49,944 bases of DNA from Gemmatimonadota bacterium (GTDB taxonomy: Bacteria; Latescibacterota; UBA2968; UBA8231): positions 1 to 49,944 of the forward strand of contig PATE01000141.1 of assembly GCA_002712305.1 (NCBI GenBank), given 5' to 3'. The notes under the pieces are model-generated. The model worked only from the letters and a program-made list of their open reading frames with translations, did no database searches and was not told the DNA's origin. Shown here piece after piece: positions 7,341-18,773 of this stretch. The first letter of the stretch is position 1. Every line of letters starts with the position of its first letter. Both the position numbers and the translations under genes were made by a program.

Positions 7341-8156
7341 TTGCTCGAAGATATCGTCTTCCTCCGACTCTTCGATTTCGTTCCGGTGACGCCCGTTTCC
7401 GTCATCGACATCCTCGTCGTGGCCTTCGTTATCTATCGCCTGCTGAATCTGATTCGCGGCACCCGGGCCGCACAGATGCTCGTCGGGCTGTTTCTCCTCG
7501 TCACCGTGGCTCTGGCTGCACGTTGGCAGGACATGCAGGCACTGGCCTACCTGCTGGAGCAAGTACAGTCGATTCTTCTGATTCTGCTCGTCATCCTCTT
7601 TCAGCCCGAATTGCGTCGGATGCTCGTGGCGCTCGGGCAAAGTCCGTTGCTGAGTTGGTTCTACAAGACCGAGCCGAATCGTGTGATCGATCACGTCGTA
7701 CAGGGCGCCACGCAATTGGCCAACCGTGGATATGGTGCCCTGATCGTTCTGACGCGAGAAGCAGGGCTTGAAAGCATCATCGAAACAGGAGTTCCCCTGG
7801 AGGCGCGGGTTTCGGCAGATCTGCTCACGACAATCTTCACGCCGCGCTCACCGCTGCATGATCAGGCCGTGGTGATTCAGGGAGAAACCCTGGTGGCCGC
7901 CCGCTGTACCCTGCCCCTGGCAGAGGAGGTCGAAGACCAGCGCCTCGGCACTCGGCACCGCGCGGCTCTGGGATTGTCGCAGGAGACAGATGCTGTCACG
8001 ATCGTCGTCTCTGAGGAAACCCAGACGATCTCCATTACGGTAGGAGGTGGCTTCCTCCGGGGTCTGGACGAGCGCGAACTGAAGCAGCGGCTGGGCGAGT
8101 TGCTGTCTCCGCGCGATGCGTCCGTCGGCGGCACAAGCGCCCTGTCCGACGACTGA
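7341..8156 (+). CDS. cdaA: Diadenylate cyclase CdaA family protein with a DQA motif
   Basis: Membrane-bound diadenylate cyclase expected to make c-di-AMP from two ATP. Three N-terminal hydrophobic segments (about residues 18-36, 43-60 and 66-86) precede the DisA_N domain. The conserved GTRHRAA is at residues 203-209. The other catalytic signature, normally Asp-Gly-Ala in PLHDGAV, reads PLHDQAV here (D174-Q175-A176; codons GAT CAG GCC). The catalytic Asp is kept but the glycine is replaced by glutamine. The start is TTG with an AAGGGA ribosome site 6 bases upstream. cdaA following folP is a common order, but the usual partner cdaR/ybbR and glmM are absent; argR follows after 213 bases. Length is 271 residues, normal. 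Activity with the changed motif is uncertain. Confidence 0.88.
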   Translation: MLEDIVFLRLFDFVPVTPVSVIDILVVAFVIYRLLNLIRGTRAAQMLVGLFLLVTVALAARWQDMQALAYLLEQVQSILLILLVILFQPELRRMLVALGQSPLLSWFYKTEPNRVIDHVVQGATQLANRGYGALIVLTREAGLESIIETGVPLEARVSADLLTTIFTPRSPLHDQAVVIQGETLVAARCTLPLAEEVEDQRLGTRHRAALGLSQETDAVTIVVSEETQTISITVGGGFLRGLDERELKQRLGELLSPRDASVGGTSALSDD

Positions 8157-8250: not shown

Positions 8251-8279
8251 TTGACGATTCTCCACCCCAACTCTATATT
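8251..8279 (+). promoter_or_regulatory. Sigma70-type promoter of the arginine operon
   Basis: A -35 element TTGACG (8251-8256) and a -10 element TATATT (8274-8279) are separated by 17 bases, with 5/6 matches to each consensus hexamer. Transcription would start near 8286, inside the paired ARG boxes, about 85 bases before argR. Confidence 0.75.
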
Positions 8280-8315
8280 GACTTTTTATTCATACATATT
8301 GAATAGTTATTCTAT
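8277..8315 (+). promoter_or_regulatory. Two tandem ARG boxes (ArgR operator)
   Basis: Box 1 (8277-8294) has core TGACT-TTTT-ATTCA and box 2 (8298-8315) has core TGAAT-AGTT-ATTCT. These match the E. coli ARG box consensus (TGAAT, four A/T, ATTCA, with A/T flanks) with one mismatch in box 1 and two in box 2. The boxes are separated by exactly 3 bp, the spacing known for hexameric ArgR on E. coli operators. They overlap the -10 element and predicted start, so arginine-loaded ArgR should repress argR-argB-argD-argH and downstream genes. Confidence 0.85.
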
Positions 8316-8369: not shown

Positions 8370-8837
8370 ATGAACGCCAAGAGCCGGCGACATGCTGCGA
8401 TTCAGGAACTGATCACGCACGAGCAGATTGCCACCCATGACCACATGGCCCAGGCTCTGGCAGCAAAACAGATTCAGGTCAGCCAGTCGACCCTATCAAA
8501 GGATCTACGCGAACTCGGCGTCGTGAGAGCCCCCTGTGCCGACGGCGGGTTCCGCTACACGATGCCTGCCGACACGGACACAACCCAACGTGAACGTCAG
8601 ATCCTGGAACGAGAACTGCGAGACTACGTCACGGGTGTCGATCGAGCTGAGAACATGGTGGTGATCAAGACGATGTCGGGCCATGCGCAGGCCGTTTGTG
8701 AGGCGATCGATCGAATGGAATGGGAGGAAGTGATGGGAACGCTCGCCGGAGAGAACACGATTTTTGCCGTCGCACGAGGCGCCGCCCAGGCCAGGTCGGT
8801 TGAGGCACGGATCCGTGAACGGAGTTCGGCCCTGTGA
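8370..8837 (+). CDS. argR: Arginine repressor ArgR
   Basis: Arginine-responsive transcription factor, normally a hexamer. The N-terminal winged helix-turn-helix is visible (QVSQSTLSKDLRELGVV, about residues 36-52). The C-terminal oligomerisation/arginine-binding domain shows GHAQAVCEAID and GTLAGENTIFAVAR, the GT-AG-(D/E)-(D/N) motif that contacts arginine. Length is 155 residues, typical. A GAGG ribosome site precedes the ATG at 8370. It is the first gene of the arginine operon, directly behind the paired ARG boxes, so it should autoregulate. Its stop overlaps the argB GTG start by four bases. ArgR as first gene of the pathway operon keeps repressor and enzymes at a fixed ratio. Confidence 0.93.
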   Translation: MNAKSRRHAAIQELITHEQIATHDHMAQALAAKQIQVSQSTLSKDLRELGVVRAPCADGGFRYTMPADTDTTQRERQILERELRDYVTGVDRAENMVVIKTMSGHAQAVCEAIDRMEWEEVMGTLAGENTIFAVARGAAQARSVEARIRERSSAL

Positions 8838-9712
8838 GCCCCCTGCAGCCCTATATCGAAAAAGCGGCCACCCTCGTCGAGGCGCTGCCCTATATCCAGT
8901 CATTCCGTGGCAAGACCGTGGTGGTCAAGTACGGTGGCAGCACGATGAACGGCGTTGATGACGACACGGTTCTCAAGGATCTCGTCTTTATGGAGTCCGT
9001 CGGAATCAATCCAGTCATCGTCCACGGCGGGGGACCGGCCATCGATCGACAATTGGAGGCCCGGAAGATTCAAACGCAGCGCGTGAATGGACTCCGGATT
9101 ACCGACCACGACACGATGCAGGTCGTGGAGGAAACACTCTTCGGCGAAGTCAACGCAGGAATCGTAGAAGCCGTGCGCGACTTAGGGGGGCGTCCTGTGG
9201 CGGTTTCGGCGCGCGACGCTGGAATCCTGAGTGTGAAGAAGCACATGGCGGATACGCCTGATGGGCCGGTAGATATTGGATTCGTAGGAGAAGTCGAACA
9301 CGTGGATCCACAGCCCCTCACCGATCTGCTCGAAAGTGAGACGATTCCCGTCGTTGCGCCCATCGGGCGCGGGCCGGACGGTGAGGCGTACAATGTCAAC
9401 GCCGACACCGCCGCCGGGGAGATCGCCGCGGCCCTGCATGCTGAAAAACTCGTGTTTCTGACCGATGTGACCGGTATCATGAGACAGCAGGATGACGAAG
9501 GTAGCCTGCTGTCCACCGTTCATGTGCGGGACGTGGAGGAGTTGATCGATACAGGCGTTATCGGTGGGGGAATGATCCCAAAGACCCGGGCAGGTGTGCA
9601 CGCGGTTCGCGCCGGTGTCCACAAAGCCCATATCATCGATGGTCGGATCCCACATTCGGTCTTGCTTGAGTTCTTTACCGACGAAGGTGTCGGCACACAG
9701 ATTGTGCAATAG
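8834..9712 (+). CDS. argB: Acetylglutamate kinase ArgB
   Basis: Cytoplasmic amino-acid kinase that phosphorylates N-acetyl-L-glutamate, step two of arginine synthesis. Motifs seen are KYGGSTM (usually KYGGNAM) near residue 34, VHGGGP, NVNADTAAGEIAAAL and the ATP-site segment LTDVTGIM. About 25 residues (ending ALPYIQSF) precede the first strand. In known hexameric enzymes such an N-terminal kinked helix makes the kinase arginine-inhibitable, so feedback inhibition is likely here (inference from the family). The GTG start overlaps argR by four bases (GTGA). Length is 292 residues, as expected. argC and argJ or argA are not in the window, so the acetylated pathway is completed elsewhere. Confidence 0.95.
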   Translation: MSPLQPYIEKAATLVEALPYIQSFRGKTVVVKYGGSTMNGVDDDTVLKDLVFMESVGINPVIVHGGGPAIDRQLEARKIQTQRVNGLRITDHDTMQVVEETLFGEVNAGIVEAVRDLGGRPVAVSARDAGILSVKKHMADTPDGPVDIGFVGEVEHVDPQPLTDLLESETIPVVAPIGRGPDGEAYNVNADTAAGEIAAALHAEKLVFLTDVTGIMRQQDDEGSLLSTVHVRDVEELIDTGVIGGGMIPKTRAGVHAVRAGVHKAHIIDGRIPHSVLLEFFTDEGVGTQIVQ

Positions 9713-9776: not shown

Positions 9777-10970
9777 ATGAAGACAGACAAAGTCATCGAA
9801 CTCGAAAACCAGTATATCCTGCAGACCTATGGTCGGCCCGGATTCGTGCTAGAGCGCGGCAACGGTGTGTATCTGTTCGATCTCGATGGCAATCGATACC
9901 TGGACTTCGTCAGCGGTCTGGCGGTCAACGCTTTCGGATACGGTGACTATGACGTGCTCAAGGCGATCGAGGTACAGGCGGGGCAATTGATGCATGTGTC
10001 CAATCTCTACCACACGCTCCCCTCGACGCGGTTGGCACGTACGCTGGTGGACAGTTCGTTCGCCGATCGGGTCTTCTTCTGCAACAGCGGCACTGAGTCT
10101 TGGGAAGCGGCGCTCAAGTTTGCTCGCAAGTGGGGGAACACTGTCGCTGGTGAAAAGAATCGTTTCATCTCCATGCACAATTCCTTTCACGGTCGCACGA
10201 TCGGCTCGATTTCCACCACGGGTCAGCCCAAGTATCACCAGGGTTTTGAGCCGCTTCTCCCGGGCGTAGACTTCGCCGACTTCAACGATCTGGCCTCGGT
10301 AGAGGCTCTCGTGACGCCCGAGACGTGTGCGATTCTCGTAGAGCCGATTCAGGCGGAGGGTGGTATCCACGTCGCCACAGACGAGTTTCTCCAGGGGCTT
10401 CGCGCCCTGTGTGACGAGAAGCAGATGCTGCTGGTTTTCGACGAAATCCAGGTGGGCATGGGGCGCACGGGATCACTGTGGGCCTATCAGCAATACGGCG
10501 TCGAGCCAGATATCATGACCCTCGCCAAGGCGTTGGGAGGTGGCCTGCCCATCGGCGCAACGTTGATGAAGCAGCACGTGGCCGATGCCATTCAACCGGG
10601 TGACCACGCAGCCACGTTTGGGGCAAATCCGGTGGTGGCCAACGTGGCACTGACGGTGATGGAGAAGCTCCAGGCAGACGGATTGATCGAGGAGATCAAA
10701 GCCAAAGGGGACCACCTGCGGGCACGGCTCGAGAAACTGCAGCAGCGCTGGCCCGAACAGATTTCAGAAATCAGGGGACGGGGTCTTCTCCAAGGCGCCG
10801 TTGTCACAGACCGTCCGCCGGCTGACTATCTGGCAGCCTTCCGCGAGCGCGATATCCTCGTGGCGCCCTGTGCCACCGATGTGGTTCGTTTCCTGCCCCC
10901 GCTGGTGATCGAAAAAGATCAGATCGACGAAGCGGTCGATGTGTTCGATGAGATCCTACGGCAGAGCTAG
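9777..10970 (+). CDS. argD: Acetylornithine aminotransferase ArgD
   Basis: PLP-dependent class III aminotransferase converting N-acetylglutamate semialdehyde to N-acetylornithine. Characteristic elements are the FCNSGTESWEAALKFAR phosphate-binding loop (Ser-Trp where Ala-Asn/Val is more common), FHGRTIGSIS, the FDEIQVGMGRTG aspartate motif and the PLP lysine at residue 251 in TLAKALGGGLP, plus TFGANPV and IRGRGLLQG. Length is 397 residues, normal. The ATG at 9777 follows AAGGA; 64 untranslated bases separate it from argB with no terminator visible. argH begins 9 bases downstream. The enzyme could also act on N-succinyl-diaminopimelate, as ArgD does in other bacteria. Confidence 0.95.
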   Translation: MKTDKVIELENQYILQTYGRPGFVLERGNGVYLFDLDGNRYLDFVSGLAVNAFGYGDYDVLKAIEVQAGQLMHVSNLYHTLPSTRLARTLVDSSFADRVFFCNSGTESWEAALKFARKWGNTVAGEKNRFISMHNSFHGRTIGSISTTGQPKYHQGFEPLLPGVDFADFNDLASVEALVTPETCAILVEPIQAEGGIHVATDEFLQGLRALCDEKQMLLVFDEIQVGMGRTGSLWAYQQYGVEPDIMTLAKALGGGLPIGATLMKQHVADAIQPGDHAATFGANPVVANVALTVMEKLQADGLIEEIKAKGDHLRARLEKLQQRWPEQISEIRGRGLLQGAVVTDRPPADYLAAFRERDILVAPCATDVVRFLPPLVIEKDQIDEAVDVFDEILRQS

Positions 10971-10978
10971 TTGGTAGC

Positions 10979-12379
10979 ATGTCCACGTCCGACAAGCCGT
11001 GGGGGGGGCGCTTTGGCACTTCCACGGCTCAACTCATGGAGCGCTTCAACGCGTCGATCGGTTTCGACTGCAGGTTGATGGAAGTGGACATCGCCGGAAG
11101 CTGCGCCTACGCCCGGACACTGACTCGAGCGGGATTGCTGACGGCAGACGAGTGTGCCCAGATCATCGATGGACTCGAGAAGGTCCGCGACGAGATGCGC
11201 GAGCCCTCCTACGAATTCGCCGATCACCTCGAGGACATCCACATGGCCGTCGAGACACGGCTGACAGAGTTGATTGGCCCAGTGGGTGGCAAACTCCACA
11301 CAGGGCGTAGTCGCAATGACCAGGTCAATCTCGACGAACGTCTCTATCTGAGAACGGCGATCGCTGCAACGGTGGGCCGGATTCGCCAACTTCAGCAGGT
11401 TCTGGTCGACTTCGCCGCTGATCACACCGAAACGATTCTGCCAGGGTACACGCATCTCCAGCAGGCGCAACCGATCCTGCTTGCCCACTATGCTCTGTCG
11501 CTGTTCTGGGCACTCGATCGGGATGCCCAGCGGCTGACGGATGCGGCCGATCGCGCTGACGTCTTGCCGTTGGGATCCGGAGCTCTGGCGGGCAGCGCCT
11601 TTCCCCTCGACAGAAGTTTCATGGCGCAGGAACTCGGCTTTTCCAGAGTGTCACCCAACAGTCTCGACGCAGTCAGCGACCGGGATTATTTCCTCGAGGC
11701 ATTGTCAGCTCTGTCTATCACCATCATTCATCTGAGTCGGTACTGTGAGGACATCATCCTCTGGTCTTCTGCCGAGTTCGGTTTCGTCGAACTCGATGAC
11801 GCCTACAGCACGGGCTCGAGCATGATGCCGCAGAAGAAGAACCCTGACTCCCTCGAATTGGTGCGGGGCAAGAGTGGGCGGATTGTCGGTGGTCTCGTGT
11901 CGCTGCTGATGACGATGAAGGGGCTGGGACTGACGTACGGGAAGGATCTGCAGGAGGACAAGGAACCCGTCTTCGATGCGTTCGACACGATCGATGACTG
12001 CCTGGATGTCTTCACCGCGGCCTGGGCCACAATGAAGGTGAATGTCGATCGCATGGAGTCCTCCATCGACGCCGGGGCACTGGCCACGGATCTGGCGGAC
12101 TATCTGGTGCGCAAGGGAGTGCCCTTTCGCGAATCTCACCACATCATCGGCCAGATCGTTCGGTCGATACTTGATGAGAAGCGACTCCTCACGGATCTGA
12201 CCGCCGAAGATCTGCACAATTTCGATCCACACTTCGAGGCGGACGCGGTCGAATGCCTCGATCTGCGACAAAGTCTGGCCGCCCGAAATCTACCAGGCGG
12301 CACCGGACCCGAAGCGATTCAAGACCAGTTGAAGGCCGCCCGCGTCGTACTCACGGATGCGGATATCTCACCCCACTGA
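10979..12379 (+). CDS. argH: Argininosuccinate lyase ArgH
   Basis: Cytoplasmic fumarase/aspartase-superfamily enzyme splitting argininosuccinate into arginine and fumarate. The superfamily signature GSSMMPQKKNPD is at residues 279-290. Also visible are the N-terminal KPWGGRF, EDIHMAVETRL, the substrate segment KLHTGRSRNDQVNLDERLY and GYTHLQQAQPI, including the catalytic-His region. Length is 466 residues, normal. It starts 9 bases after argD and is followed after 13 bases by an enolase-superfamily gene on the same strand without a terminator. argG and argF, which supply its substrate, are not in this window. Confidence 0.96.
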   Translation: MSTSDKPWGGRFGTSTAQLMERFNASIGFDCRLMEVDIAGSCAYARTLTRAGLLTADECAQIIDGLEKVRDEMREPSYEFADHLEDIHMAVETRLTELIGPVGGKLHTGRSRNDQVNLDERLYLRTAIAATVGRIRQLQQVLVDFAADHTETILPGYTHLQQAQPILLAHYALSLFWALDRDAQRLTDAADRADVLPLGSGALAGSAFPLDRSFMAQELGFSRVSPNSLDAVSDRDYFLEALSALSITIIHLSRYCEDIILWSSAEFGFVELDDAYSTGSSMMPQKKNPDSLELVRGKSGRIVGGLVSLLMTMKGLGLTYGKDLQEDKEPVFDAFDTIDDCLDVFTAAWATMKVNVDRMESSIDAGALATDLADYLVRKGVPFRESHHIIGQIVRSILDEKRLLTDLTAEDLHNFDPHFEADAVECLDLRQSLAARNLPGGTGPEAIQDQLKAARVVLTDADISPH

Positions 12380-12392
12380 AAAAAAGAAGCAC

Positions 12393-13862
12393 ATGTCCAT
12401 TCCGATTCGCGTTCATCGACTCCAATTCGGAGTTCGACAGGTTCCCATGCGCCTGCCCTTCCGATTCGGCGCCGTCACCCTGACCGCTGCAGCTCAAATC
12501 CATCTGTTCGCCGACATCGAGACGAGCACGGGGCGCCGTGCCCAGGGTGTGGCGGCCGACATGTTGGCACCCAAGTGGTTCGACAAGGATCCCAACAAGA
12601 GCTACGCCGACAACATGAACGACCTCATCGATTCGGCGAAGGCTGCTTCAGCGGCTGTCGAAGCTGTTGATGAGGCCCGTCCGGTTTTCGATCTGTGGAG
12701 AATCGGCTATGACGCCGCTCAGGCCTGGGGAGAAGGACGAGGGCTCAACGAACTGACAAGTGCCTATGGAAGCACTCTCGTTGAACGCGCCATCATCGAT
12801 GGATTGGGACGAGCCGAAGGCCTCACCTACTACCAGCTCCTTCGGGACAACCACCTGGACATCGATCTGGGCGTATTACACGCTGAGTTGAAGGGGGTGT
12901 CGCCGGGGGATCTGCTGCCCGCAGCTCCTCGTAAGCGGATGCAGATGCGCCATACGGTCGGCCTGCTCGACCCCCTTTGCATCGAAGAGGTCGAACCGAA
13001 CCAATTGCTCGATGACGGTCTGCCGCAGGGCCTCGATCAATACATTGCCCAACAGGATCTCAGATTCTTCAAGATCAAGGTCGGCGGCGATGTGGATGCC
13101 GATGTCGAACGCCTTGCCCAGATCGCAGAGGTCATCGCCCTTGTCGATGACGCCAAAGTCACTCTCGACGGCAACGAACAATACAGCGATCCAGACCTGT
13201 TGATGCAGTTGCTTGACAGACTGGAAACAGGCCCAGATGCTGTCCGGCAGCTCTATCAGAAGATCATCTATCTCGAACAGCCTCTGGACCGTGCCGTCTG
13301 CCTCGACGCTTCGCTCGCCCCCAAGATTCATCGGCTATCCGAGCGCATCCCCATGGTGATCGACGAAGCGGATGAAGCCCTCGACACCTTTCGGCTTTCC
13401 GTCGACCGGGGATATCGTGGCGTATCGTCTAAAGTCTGTAAGGGGATGATCAAGGCGCTGGCAAATCTTGGCCTCTGCAAGCACTTCTCAGCCGCCAAAC
13501 CCCATGACTACTTCGTGACAGGCGAGGATCTGACCAATGTTCCCCTCGTCGCTCTCCAGCAGGACCTGACCCATCTGGCGGCGATCGACATCGCCCATGT
13601 CGAACGGAATGGCCATCACTATGTGCGTGGCATCGATCATCTTCCTGAGGCCGAGCGGGTGGCGTGTCGAGGGGCCCATCGATCCCTCTACGATGATGTC
13701 GGCGAAGATCTTACGAGTCTTCGCGTGGTCGATGGCGCCATGGATCTGTCCTCTCTTCAGGTCCCCGGACTCGGGATCAGCGCCGACGTTGAGCTCGCAT
13801 CCATGATTCCACTCGATCGCTGGCAGCCTCAGGATCTGGAGCAGATCGGCACTGTCGCATGA
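12393..13862 (+). CDS. Enolase-superfamily enzyme, tandem paralogue 1
   Basis: 489-residue member of the enolase superfamily with muconate-lactonising-enzyme-type catalytic residues. The KxK motif is K227/K229 (FFKIKVGG). The three metal-ligand motifs are D259 (LDGNEQY), E295 (YLEQPL) and D324/E325 (VIDEAD), and the second-half lysine region is K347/K350 (SSKVCKG). This layout supports Mg-dependent proton abstraction alpha to a carboxylate (racemase, epimerase or dehydratase chemistry). At 489 residues it is longer than typical MLE or dipeptide epimerases (350-400). The extra length includes a PKWFDKDP stretch near the N-terminus and a C-terminal GHHYVRG block. The ATG at 12393 is preceded by AAGAAG, 13 bases behind argH; its stop overlaps the next paralogue as ATGA. 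The substrate is unknown. Position suggests an amino acid, N-acyl amino acid or dipeptide, which is inference. Confidence 0.85.
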   Translation: MSIPIRVHRLQFGVRQVPMRLPFRFGAVTLTAAAQIHLFADIETSTGRRAQGVAADMLAPKWFDKDPNKSYADNMNDLIDSAKAASAAVEAVDEARPVFDLWRIGYDAAQAWGEGRGLNELTSAYGSTLVERAIIDGLGRAEGLTYYQLLRDNHLDIDLGVLHAELKGVSPGDLLPAAPRKRMQMRHTVGLLDPLCIEEVEPNQLLDDGLPQGLDQYIAQQDLRFFKIKVGGDVDADVERLAQIAEVIALVDDAKVTLDGNEQYSDPDLLMQLLDRLETGPDAVRQLYQKIIYLEQPLDRAVCLDASLAPKIHRLSERIPMVIDEADEALDTFRLSVDRGYRGVSSKVCKGMIKALANLGLCKHFSAAKPHDYFVTGEDLTNVPLVALQQDLTHLAAIDIAHVERNGHHYVRGIDHLPEAERVACRGAHRSLYDDVGEDLTSLRVVDGAMDLSSLQVPGLGISADVELASMIPLDRWQPQDLEQIGTVA

Positions 13863-15295
13863 GTGTGACTCTGCGCGTCAGCGATATCGATTTCCGCATG
13901 CGCAACGTGCGCACGCGTATGCCATTCCGCTACGGCGTGGCCACGCTGACCTCCGTTCCCATCCTCCACATCACTCTGACGGGCGAGCTCGGCAACGGTA
14001 CTCAGGTGAGGGGGTACTCCGCCGACATCCTCCCTCCAAAGTGGTTCGACAAGGATCCCGCCAAGCAATACCAGGACAATGTGGAGGACCTGCTGTTTTC
14101 GGCAGAGAGTGCCGCTCGTGTCCTGACGCAGACGGCTCCAGCCAGCGTGTTCGAGCTCTGGCGAGAGACCTACGACGCCACACTGTCCGCAGGGGACGGG
14201 CGCGGCCTCAATCATCTGACCGCTGCCCATGGAAGTACGCTGATGGAAAGAGCCATGATCGACGCCGTGGGGCGCGGGATCGGCCTTCCCTATCACAGCA
14301 TGCTCAGATCTGCCGACAACCCATTGGGTATCGATCTGGGACAGATCCTGCCATCCTTAAAGGGGATGGCCATTGCCGACACGGTGCCATCCACTCCGTC
14401 GGCGTCGGTTGCCATCCGGCATACGGTGGGTCTGACCGATCCCATCGACGATGGCGATATCGCTGTCGAAGATTGGCTCAGCGACGGTCTGCCTCAATCG
14501 CTGCGAGCCTACATCGATGTACAGGGACTGACGCACTTTAAAGTGAAGATTCAGGGTGATGCCGAACTCGACCTGGAACGTCTGCGTCAGATCTCCCGCG
14601 TTGTGGAGGCGACGGATTGCCTGATCTCATTGGACGGCAACGAGCAGTACTCCGACCTGGAGCCCTTTGAGTCGCTCCTTTCCCGTCTCGCCGAAGACCT
14701 ACCTGCGTTCTATAAATCGATCTCCTACATCGAGCAGCCTCTGGAGCGGTCGGTGGCGCTCGAACCGCAGCAGGCAGAACGCATTCGCCGCATCAGTGAG
14801 ACAAAGCCGATGATCGTGGACGAATCCGACGGCGATCTGGAAACGTTCCTGCAGGCCATCGATGTGGGGTATCGTGGTGTCTCTACGAAAAATTGCAAAG
14901 GCCTGTTCAAGGCTCTGGCCAATGCCGCCCTGGCACAGACACGCAGCAGAGAGGGGACGGTCTTCCTGCTTACGGCAGAGGACCTGATGAATCTGCCTGT
15001 CGTGCCGCTACACCAGGATCTTACTCACCTGGCAGCACTGGGTCTGGACCATGCCGAGCGAAATGGTCACCACTATGTAAGAGGTCTCGATCACCTCACC
15101 GAATCCGAGCGGAGCGCCTGCCTGGGCGCACACAACAGCCTCTACAAAGAGGATGGGGCTTCGGCGTCTCTTGCCGTGCACGAAGGACGCATTGATCTGA
15201 ACTCTCTCACGATTCCGGGACTGGGTGTCGACTCAGACACCGTCGACACGTCCTCGATGATACCTCTGTCCGACTGGCATTTTGACTCACTGTGA
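13859..15295 (+). CDS. Enolase-superfamily enzyme, tandem paralogue 2
   Basis: 478-residue paralogue of the preceding gene, aligning along its whole length. Shared blocks are MPFRYG near the N-terminus, PPKWFDKDP, GRGLNHLTAAHGST, the KxK pair K228/K230 (FKVKIQG), SLDGNEQYSD, YIEQPLER, IVDESD, GYRGVSTKNCKG, AEDLMNLPVVPLHQDLTHLAALG and NGHHYVRGLDHL. All presumed catalytic and metal residues are conserved in both copies, so neither looks degenerate. The two proteins are clearly diverged, indicating an old duplication and perhaps different substrates or a heteromer. The start overlaps the upstream stop by four bases (ATGA), so 1:1 translation is plausible. An M20 metallohydrolase gene starts 13 bases downstream. 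No close characterised relative is recognised. Confidence 0.85.
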   Translation: MSVTLRVSDIDFRMRNVRTRMPFRYGVATLTSVPILHITLTGELGNGTQVRGYSADILPPKWFDKDPAKQYQDNVEDLLFSAESAARVLTQTAPASVFELWRETYDATLSAGDGRGLNHLTAAHGSTLMERAMIDAVGRGIGLPYHSMLRSADNPLGIDLGQILPSLKGMAIADTVPSTPSASVAIRHTVGLTDPIDDGDIAVEDWLSDGLPQSLRAYIDVQGLTHFKVKIQGDAELDLERLRQISRVVEATDCLISLDGNEQYSDLEPFESLLSRLAEDLPAFYKSISYIEQPLERSVALEPQQAERIRRISETKPMIVDESDGDLETFLQAIDVGYRGVSTKNCKGLFKALANAALAQTRSREGTVFLLTAEDLMNLPVVPLHQDLTHLAALGLDHAERNGHHYVRGLDHLTESERSACLGAHNSLYKEDGASASLAVHEGRIDLNSLTIPGLGVDSDTVDTSSMIPLSDWHFDSL

Positions 15296-15308
15296 CGGGA
15301 CACAGACG

Positions 15309-16646
15309 ATGACTGATCATCAACAGGCGGTGGAGCGTCTGCGCCGCATGATTCGCATCGACACGGTCAATCCTCCTGGCAACGAACTTCCCGTGGCACA
15401 GATGTTAGCCAAGGAGTTGTCAGATGAGGGACTCGACCATGTTGAGGTGATCGAGTCCGCGTCGCAGCGGGCGAGTCTGGCGGTCAGAGTGCCGGGCGAC
15501 GGGTCCGAGCGGCCCCTGCTGCTGATGTCACATCTGGATGTCGTGCCCGTAGAGTCGGCGCATTGGCGAGAGCCTCCTTTTGCCGGCAATCTCGTGGATG
15601 GGTTTGTCTATGGCCGAGGGGCCATCGACTCAAAACTGACGGCAGCTGTGCACATACAGGTCTTGTTGATGTTGCACAGAGCTGGTATACGGCTCAAACG
15701 AGATCTTGTGTTGGTCGCCGCAGCGGACGAAGAGTTCGGTGGACATCTCGGCATGGAGTATCTTGCGCGAGAGCGCCCAGATCTGTTCGACGCAGAATTC
15801 GGTCTCAATGAAGCCGGGGGATTCGCAGTACTCGTCGATGGCCAGCCGATCTACACGTGCCAGGCCGCCGAGAAGGGCGGTGCGGACTTCGACGTGATTG
15901 TCGACGGCACACCCGGTCACAGCTCGGTGCCCCACCAGGAAAATCCCATCGTGCACCTGGCATCGGCCCTCGGCGCGCTGGGCGGCAAACTTCCTCACTG
16001 CGTCACACCCGCTGTTGGAGCCTTCTTCGAACGAGCGGCAGCCGCCGTGCATCCTCAGGTGGGTGATCTGCTGCTGGCGCTGCTCGATCCATCGCGCTGT
16101 GATGACGCCCTTTCGAAGCTGCCTGTGGCAGAGCCAGTGCGCCTCATGTTTGACGCCATGCTGCGCAACACATGCGCCCCGACGCTGTTGGAGGCGGGCA
16201 TCAAGCGCAATGTCATCCCCTCACAGGCGACAGTGAAACTGAGTGGACGCCCGCTGCCCGGCGTGACGGCGGAGCAGATGCAGGCCGAGATCATGGCGCT
16301 GTTGAACTGCGACAATCCGTCGTCAACGGTGCGGCTTCACCTGGATCGTTTCCGTCCAGGGGTGGCCTTCGATCACGAGACGTCGCTGTTGCCAAGCCTC
16401 GAAGCTGCGCTTCAGCGACACGAACCAGGCGCCTGCCTGGCGCCCTTTATGCAGACGGGGGGTACGGATGCTCGTTTCCTGGCAGATCGCGATCTCGTGA
16501 TCTATGGATTCGTGCCGATGCGGCATGAAGAGGGTGTGCGCACGTTCTTCGAACTGTGTCATGGCCATGACGAGTGCGTCTCGGTGGCAAACGTCGGATT
16601 TGCCGTGGATGTCATCCACGACGCCGTGAAGGACCTGGGCGCGTGA
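15309..16646 (+). CDS. M20-family zinc metallohydrolase (peptidase/deacylase)
   Basis: Di-zinc M20 hydrolase of 445 residues, related to carboxypeptidase yscS/CPG2, ArgE, DapE and aminoacylase. Metal and catalytic motifs in order are SHLDVVP (H75, D77), YGRGAIDSK (bridging Asp), ADEEFGG (catalytic Glu pair), NEAGG and the C-terminal HGHDECVSV. The dimerisation domain insertion has TPGHSSVPHQENP. The ATG at 15309 has a GGGA ribosome site; a TTG 27 bases earlier overlaps the previous gene and is less likely. It ends the arginine/enolase operon. It could be an acetylornithine deacetylase replacing ArgE, but length and motifs look closer to general M20 carboxypeptidases or dipeptidases. The substrate is therefore left open. 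Confidence 0.85.
   Translation: MTDHQQAVERLRRMIRIDTVNPPGNELPVAQMLAKELSDEGLDHVEVIESASQRASLAVRVPGDGSERPLLLMSHLDVVPVESAHWREPPFAGNLVDGFVYGRGAIDSKLTAAVHIQVLLMLHRAGIRLKRDLVLVAAADEEFGGHLGMEYLARERPDLFDAEFGLNEAGGFAVLVDGQPIYTCQAAEKGGADFDVIVDGTPGHSSVPHQENPIVHLASALGALGGKLPHCVTPAVGAFFERAAAAVHPQVGDLLLALLDPSRCDDALSKLPVAEPVRLMFDAMLRNTCAPTLLEAGIKRNVIPSQATVKLSGRPLPGVTAEQMQAEIMALLNCDNPSSTVRLHLDRFRPGVAFDHETSLLPSLEAALQRHEPGACLAPFMQTGGTDARFLADRDLVIYGFVPMRHEEGVRTFFELCHGHDECVSVANVGFAVDVIHDAVKDLGA

Positions 16647-16742: not shown

Positions 16743-18773
<2,031 letters not shown>

Follow-up and report, generated by a model that had tools for sequence, protein, structure and literature searches.

Most likely recruitment of widespread enolase-superfamily paralogues into a predicted ArgR-regulated operon in Latescibacterota

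Why does an arginine operon end in two long enolase-superfamily genes and a metallohydrolase gene, and which reaction might these genes serve? The question is raised by a single contig belonging to a 4.77-Mb genome; the records of its closest relatives assign them to Latescibacterota, with the label Gemmatimonadetes on some. The whole stretch of DNA analysed (49,944 nucleotides) is called the window here, and the features of interest within it are the following:

8251..8279, + strand: promoter-like site TTGACG-17-TATATT upstream of argR (consensus match only)
8277..8294, + strand: ARG box-like operator 1, ATTGACTTTTTATTCATA, overlapping the -10 element (14 of 16 consensus positions)
8298..8315, + strand: ARG box-like operator 2, ATTGAATAGTTATTCTAT (12 of 16 consensus positions)
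8370..8837, + strand: argR, arginine repressor (TIGR01529, 142 bits, above cut-off)
8834..9712, + strand: argB, acetylglutamate kinase (TIGR00761, 235 bits, above cut-off)
9777..10970, + strand: argD, acetylornithine transaminase (TIGR00707, 482 bits, above cut-off)
10979..12379, + strand: argH, argininosuccinate lyase (TIGR00838, 585 bits, above cut-off)
12393..13862, + strand: E1, long enolase-superfamily protein with an MLE-type two-lysine active site (489 aa)
13859..15295, + strand: E2, tandem paralogue of E1 (478 aa, 4-base overlap with E1)
15309..16646, + strand: M20-A metallohydrolase, active-site residues intact (445 aa; PF01546, 87 bits)
16743..18764, - strand: ligA, convergent, closing the cluster here and in relatives

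The genes from argH to M20 lie on the same strand and are separated by 13, -4, and 13 bases (argH/E1, E1/E2, and E2/M20, respectively). Between positions 8000 and 17200, only two promoter-like sites were detected, both at 8251-8307 upstream of argR, and TTGACG-17-TATATT, one of just these two in 9.2 kb, is at the right place. No plus-strand terminator-like site was found in the same interval; there are four minus-strand sites of this kind, a number that does not exceed the chance level. An earlier note, made from the sequence of this DNA, had proposed that argH, E1, E2, and M20 follow one another at this spacing as one operon, and had named a separate promoter or terminator after argH as evidence to the contrary; the layout is as described, and the scan found neither an internal promoter nor an internal terminator after argH.

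The same note had placed the added genes under the control of ArgR. Classical ArgR operators are 18-bp boxes with a 3-bp spacer. Two ARG box-like palindromes, 21 bp apart centre to centre, are present at the sole promoter-like region, and the first of them is the only site in the 50-kb window with three or fewer mismatches (chance expectation 0.2). A box pair with the same 21-bp spacing occurs in three relatives (G001, G009, and G015; loci L068, L070, and L086), while G012 has a single strong ARG box. The locus thus resembles known ArgR-regulated arg operons in its argR, argB, argD, and argH genes and its two 18-bp boxes with a 3-bp spacer, but differs from them in having three extra non-arginine genes at the 3' end. 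Control by ArgR gains evidence from these tandem sites at the promoter and their conservation in relatives, and so does the placement of E1, E2, and M20 under this predicted control.

In order to see how stable this arrangement is, we considered family f1, which comprises 25 genomes including that of the window. In 19 of the 25, the gene immediately after argH belongs to the enolase superfamily, meaning that the neighbourhood, the loss of which in relatives would have spoken against the earlier note, is conserved. E1-E2 follow argH in G000, G001, G005-G007, G009, G012, G013, G016, and G018-G024 (contigs of G005, G019, and G022 are partial), a third enolase-type subfamily with 22-27% identity (E0) takes this place in G002 and G003, and the order after argH in G015 is E0-E1'-E2-M20. 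The cluster is interrupted in the five genomes of genus g4, where, on contigs that are long enough, an H+-pyrophosphatase gene lies between argH and E0 (L062:6532-9048, L079, L209, L210, and L212), E2 is located further on or on another contig, and E1 is absent. In G010, argH is cut by the contig end. Ten f1 genomes have M20-A as the final gene ahead of ligA, and eight that keep E1-E2 lack it (G006, G016, G018, and G020-G024). Two assemblies that consist of a single contig, G018 and G024, likewise have E1-E2 at the end of the operon; therefore, a binning artefact and a chimeric MAG could be ruled out. As the full order is seen in G015 and subsets of it elsewhere, the simplest history is an ancestral order argRBDH-E0-E1-E2-M20 followed by losses, which we regard as likely. 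At the f2-f4 loci examined, no member of these enolase-type subfamilies follows argH. As a separate observation, E0, a long MLE-type subfamily found in the arg operon in f1, is flanked by hisC and hisB in the histidine operon of family f3 at 13 of 13 loci examined (L059:6342-11577, L060, L061, L064, and L188-L196; hisB is cut off in one).

E1 and E2 share 49% identity and were the only members of their family recovered from the genome by a whole-protein search. E2 matches MR_MLE_C at 40 bits, above the cut-off; E1 has no Pfam match alone, yet it aligns throughout. Both contain K228-x-K230, D259, E292, D321, and K344-x-x-K347 (E2 numbering), and hence the MLE-type set of a K-x-K motif on strand 2, Asp/Glu/Asp ligands on strands 3-5, and a lysine on strand 6, with K228, K230, D259, E292, D321, and K344 kept in the wider family as well. 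Strand 6 reads K-x-C-K and strand 7 E-D-L, with no histidine on the latter, and the mandelate-racemase-type dyad (His on strand 7, Asp on strand 6) is absent from both proteins. Two-lysine alpha-proton transfer is established in the MLE subgroup, and given that the two-lysine site is kept and the strand-7 histidine is lacking, we expect this chemistry for E1 and E2. The claim that both proteins keep a full active site agrees with their sequences, in which the two-lysine metal site appears intact.

The AlphaFold model of E2 (pLDDT 91.5, pTM 0.93, no residue below 50) consists of one capping domain and a (beta/alpha) barrel. This single continuous fold rules out an extra domain as the cause of the unusual length of E1 and E2, which, going by the model, comes from insertions. 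Enolase-superfamily structures topped both fold searches with E2 (best Z score 29, residues 3-473 aligned), but muconate lactonising enzymes, dipeptide epimerases, N-acylamino acid racemases, and mandelate-racemase-type proteins were tied, all top Z scores falling within about 2 units. Because structures from across the superfamily tie, the fold match says nothing about the substrate.

A scan with one genome per species returned more than 590 encoded relatives of the E1/E2 family, of which 80 were kept, belonging to Planctomycetota, Verrucomicrobiota, Chloroflexota (many of them Caldilineaceae), Hydrogenedentota, Poribacteria, Armatimonadota, Alphaproteobacteria, and others. E1 and E2 form sister clades inside this wider family in the tree. 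A viral link was rejected, as viral contigs contained no relatives. Two of the loci come from MAGs titled Klebsiella pneumoniae (L108) and Akkermansia muciniphila (L155), although their E genes group with Verrucomicrobiota, and the Klebsiella pneumoniae title is probably wrong. Conservation was scored on 95 catalytically intact, non-redundant rows, 70 of them from outside f1; R20, W62, K65, D194, D209, K228, K230, D259, N261, E262, E292, R297, D321, D324, K344, C346, K347, E374, D375, and D387 are invariant or almost so. The stretches R187-P195 and E400-Y406 are nearly invariant too, partly through selection bias, since they served as search patterns. Such a near-invariant active site suggests one reaction for the whole family.

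At the loci examined outside Latescibacterota, no arg genes lie beside family members and no M20 match was found among their neighbours, M20 partners being seen only in Latescibacterota. We compared 80 co-directional operon neighbours outside the phylum with 91 control genes from the same loci: AP_endonuc_2 (xylose-isomerase-like) accounted for 10 of 80 neighbours against at most 1 of 91 controls (Fisher p = 0.002, uncorrected), and Meth_synt_2 for 6 of 80 against at most 1 of 91 (Fisher p = 0.04, uncorrected). Neighbours in Alphaproteobacteria include a Tct transporter, a ketose-epimerase-like protein, an NAD-dependent epimerase/dehydratase, and a DHDPS-type protein; a reading of these clusters as uronate dehydrogenase, cycloisomerase, and KdgD was discarded, as the neighbours do not match such models. 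The neighbourhoods thus lean towards a sugar-acid-like substrate, which is suggestive and not proof: the enrichment is not large, and sugar enzymes abound in these phyla. No description of the family in Latescibacterota was found in the open-access literature, and no name or function for the cross-phylum family was found here.

The reading that we prefer, tentatively and with a rough probability of 0.4, is that recruited paralogues perform the usual carboxylate chemistry of their family, probably on a sugar-acid-like compound, under ArgR. A tandem duplication of one member of the cross-phylum family with its MLE-type site would have given rise to E1 and E2, and in the ancestor of f1 these, together with E0 and an M20 amidohydrolase, would have joined the 3' end of argRBDH. 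Having joined an ArgR-controlled operon, they would, as we propose, be made when arginine is scarce. Both enzymes would remove the alpha-proton from a carboxylate bound to Mg and share the reaction of the other family members, which most likely racemises, epimerises, or cycloisomerises a polyhydroxylated (sugar-acid-like) compound; where M20 is kept, its role would be to split an amide bond within this pathway (e.g., in an N-acyl-2-amino sugar acid). Such a scheme would need no arginine-dedicated step, and since these enzymes are also found in many phyla at a distance from arginine genes, they probably do not serve arginine specifically. Sugar-acid dehydratases and cycloisomerases of the mandelate-racemase subgroup share the fold, the metal site, and comparable sugar-type neighbourhoods outside the phylum with E1 and E2, but the latter lack the strand-7 histidine and have a lysine on strand 6. 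The missing His-Asp dyad of the known sugar-acid dehydratases stands against the preferred reading, and the substrates of known two-lysine members are mostly muconates, succinylbenzoate, and amino-acid derivatives. The outcome that the earlier note had named as fatal to an amino-acid role, i.e., sugar-acid dehydratases unrelated to amino acids, is therefore only half approached: the evidence leans to a sugar acid, short of proof, and the signature of a dehydratase is absent. Conversely, the stable family-wide place beside argH and the conserved predicted ArgR operator could reflect a real link to arginine.

Next to this recruitment, we consider it possible, if rather doubtful, that the genes are positional accidents, captured after argH and kept as read-through passengers that have no functional link to the operon. 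Each genome holds at least 29-52 MR_MLE_C matches among the matches listed, and most of these genomes carry about 50 or more such genes, which makes accidental capture likelier. A comparable expansion of enolase-superfamily paralogues was reported for SAR202 Chloroflexota (4-75 per genome in group I; PMC6946804), likewise amounting to dozens per genome, but nearly all of those belong to the mandelate-racemase family, and the part of that paper drawn on here does not describe placement in amino-acid operons. An accident would also fit the occurrence of E0 in the arg operon here and in the his operon of another family, the independent losses of M20, E0, or E1, and the one E1 copy devoid of catalytic residues. 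It accounts less well for the short gene spacing, which is kept in more than 12 genomes of several genera, for operons that have accumulated as many as three enolase-type genes along with M20, and for the few losses of the whole block.

The substrate favoured by the earlier note, an N-acylated amino acid or a dipeptide, leads to another alternative, in which E1 and E2 epimerise such compounds (e.g., derivatives of D-Arg or D-Orn), M20 hydrolyses the L-product, and the whole serves arginine salvage in times of scarcity, similar to the N-succinylamino acid racemase/desuccinylase route. Besides the two-lysine site and the ARG-box operator, the properties of M20 are consistent with it. M20 is a member of Peptidase_M20 (best NCBIfam model PRK07906, 310 bits, below its cut-off of 382) with H75, D107, E141, E142, E168, and H418 invariant in 45 relatives, and aminoacylase-1 is among its relatives. 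The M20 proteins of the class form two old paralogous clades, and E1/E2 are paired with clade A in f1, whereas a different E clade is paired with clade B in f3/f4; such pairs seem to have originated on two occasions, a point in favour of a functional E-M20 link within Latescibacterota. A direct arginine link via this f3/f4 E clade was ruled out, as no arg genes are near it. The f3/f4 pair is often found beside a DgaE-like PLP ammonia-lyase homologue or 2-hydroxyacid dehydrogenases, in several cases with a creatininase-type protein, and M20 clade A is near another DgaE-like gene in f4 and G035. In f3/f4, the M20-A orthologue was observed to adjoin a DgaE-like gene and not an enolase-type gene (L169:8180-11010, L170, L171, and L172). 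With 5-25 DgaE-like genes per genome, some adjacency by chance is expected. A DgaE-like neighbour would suit a 2-amino sugar acid, in line with the preferred reading, and a 2-acylamino-2-deoxy-aldonate, which is an N-acyl amino acid and a sugar acid at once, would reconcile these contexts.

We consider this amino-acid alternative unlikely. The best PDB profile match is the dipeptide epimerase 3rit, at 25 bits over 80 residues, and the N-succinyl-Arg/Lys racemase 2p88 is one of many tied folds; but the ties extend across the whole superfamily and no amino-acid racemase/epimerase model exceeds 21 bits against cut-offs of 131-500. Models of menC reach at most 21 bits for E1 and E2 (cut-offs 131-259), a DgcA match was seen for E0 relatives only (20-21 bits, cut-off 400), and the curated dipeptide epimerase model NF041118 gives 18.5 bits for E1 (cut-off 500). 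Dipeptide epimerases of the L-Ala-D/L-Glu type (3rit, 1jpm) share the fold, KxK, D/E/D, and the strand-6 lysine. An Asp-x-Asp motif on their strand 8 binds the ammonium group of the dipeptide; strand 8 here reads E400-R-N402 (ERNGHHY), at a position that may be equivalent. N-succinylamino acid/N-acylamino acid racemase, reportedly described together with a desuccinylase by Sakai and colleagues in 2006, has an MLE-type fold, a two-lysine site, and an M20-type hydrolase in its cluster, but it is about 370 aa long compared to about 480 here, at 16-20% identity, and the present locus has a paralogue pair, no adjoining acyltransferase gene, no family-model match, and an M20 partner that is not conserved across the family. 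Eight genomes with E1-E2 lack M20, neither it nor arg genes were seen next to the family at the loci examined beyond the phylum, and a variable side chain would seem hard to accommodate in the invariant polar active site. Overall, the operon membership, intact sites, predicted ArgR control, and conservation put forward by the earlier note hold up, while its N-acyl or dipeptide substrate is disfavoured by the low model scores, the near-invariant site in phyla where arg genes are not beside it, the lean of the neighbours to sugar metabolism, and the confinement of M20 partners to Latescibacterota among the loci examined.

A more far-reaching version, an ArgR-regulated arginine side branch composed of E0-E1-E2-M20 with E1-E2 as a heteromer and E0 in a like role in the his operon of a sister family, strikes us as improbable. 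That E1 and E2 form one heteromeric enzyme, leaving E1 free to drift towards a non-catalytic partner, is in itself quite improbable. The tandem pair is close or overlapping in most genomes, and in G015 the E1 copy (L086:8777-10246), which sits between two intact enolase-type genes, has lost K228, K230, K344, K347, E374, and N402 and keeps its full 489-aa frame; judged by these residues it is possibly a pseudoenzyme, and the losses may reflect either a structural role or decay. However, the other genomes examined have a catalytically intact E1, E2 occurs without E1 in genus g4, and to our knowledge the known superfamily enzymes are homo-oligomers. Finally, that M20 is the acetylornithine deacetylase (ArgE) completing the linear arginine pathway, as its family membership and place in the arg operon might imply, is very improbable and was dismissed, given that TIGR01892 scores 79 bits against a cut-off of 298, that argJ, which recycles the acetyl group and makes an ArgE unnecessary, is above its cut-off in this genome and in 42 of 46 genomes examined, and that M20 is absent from several relatives keeping the operon.

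The most likely event behind this locus is thus the recruitment of widespread enolase-superfamily paralogues into an ArgR-regulated operon. Members of this superfamily are usually studied as catabolic enzymes, and the arginine/histidine side branch, if true, would add an enolase-superfamily activity connected with amino-acid biosynthesis that has not been described before. The ARG-box operator and the presence of E0 in arg and his operons offer unusual handles on the physiology of these proteins, and, as more than 590 loci in many phyla encode the family and its active site hardly varies, one assay could annotate all of them.
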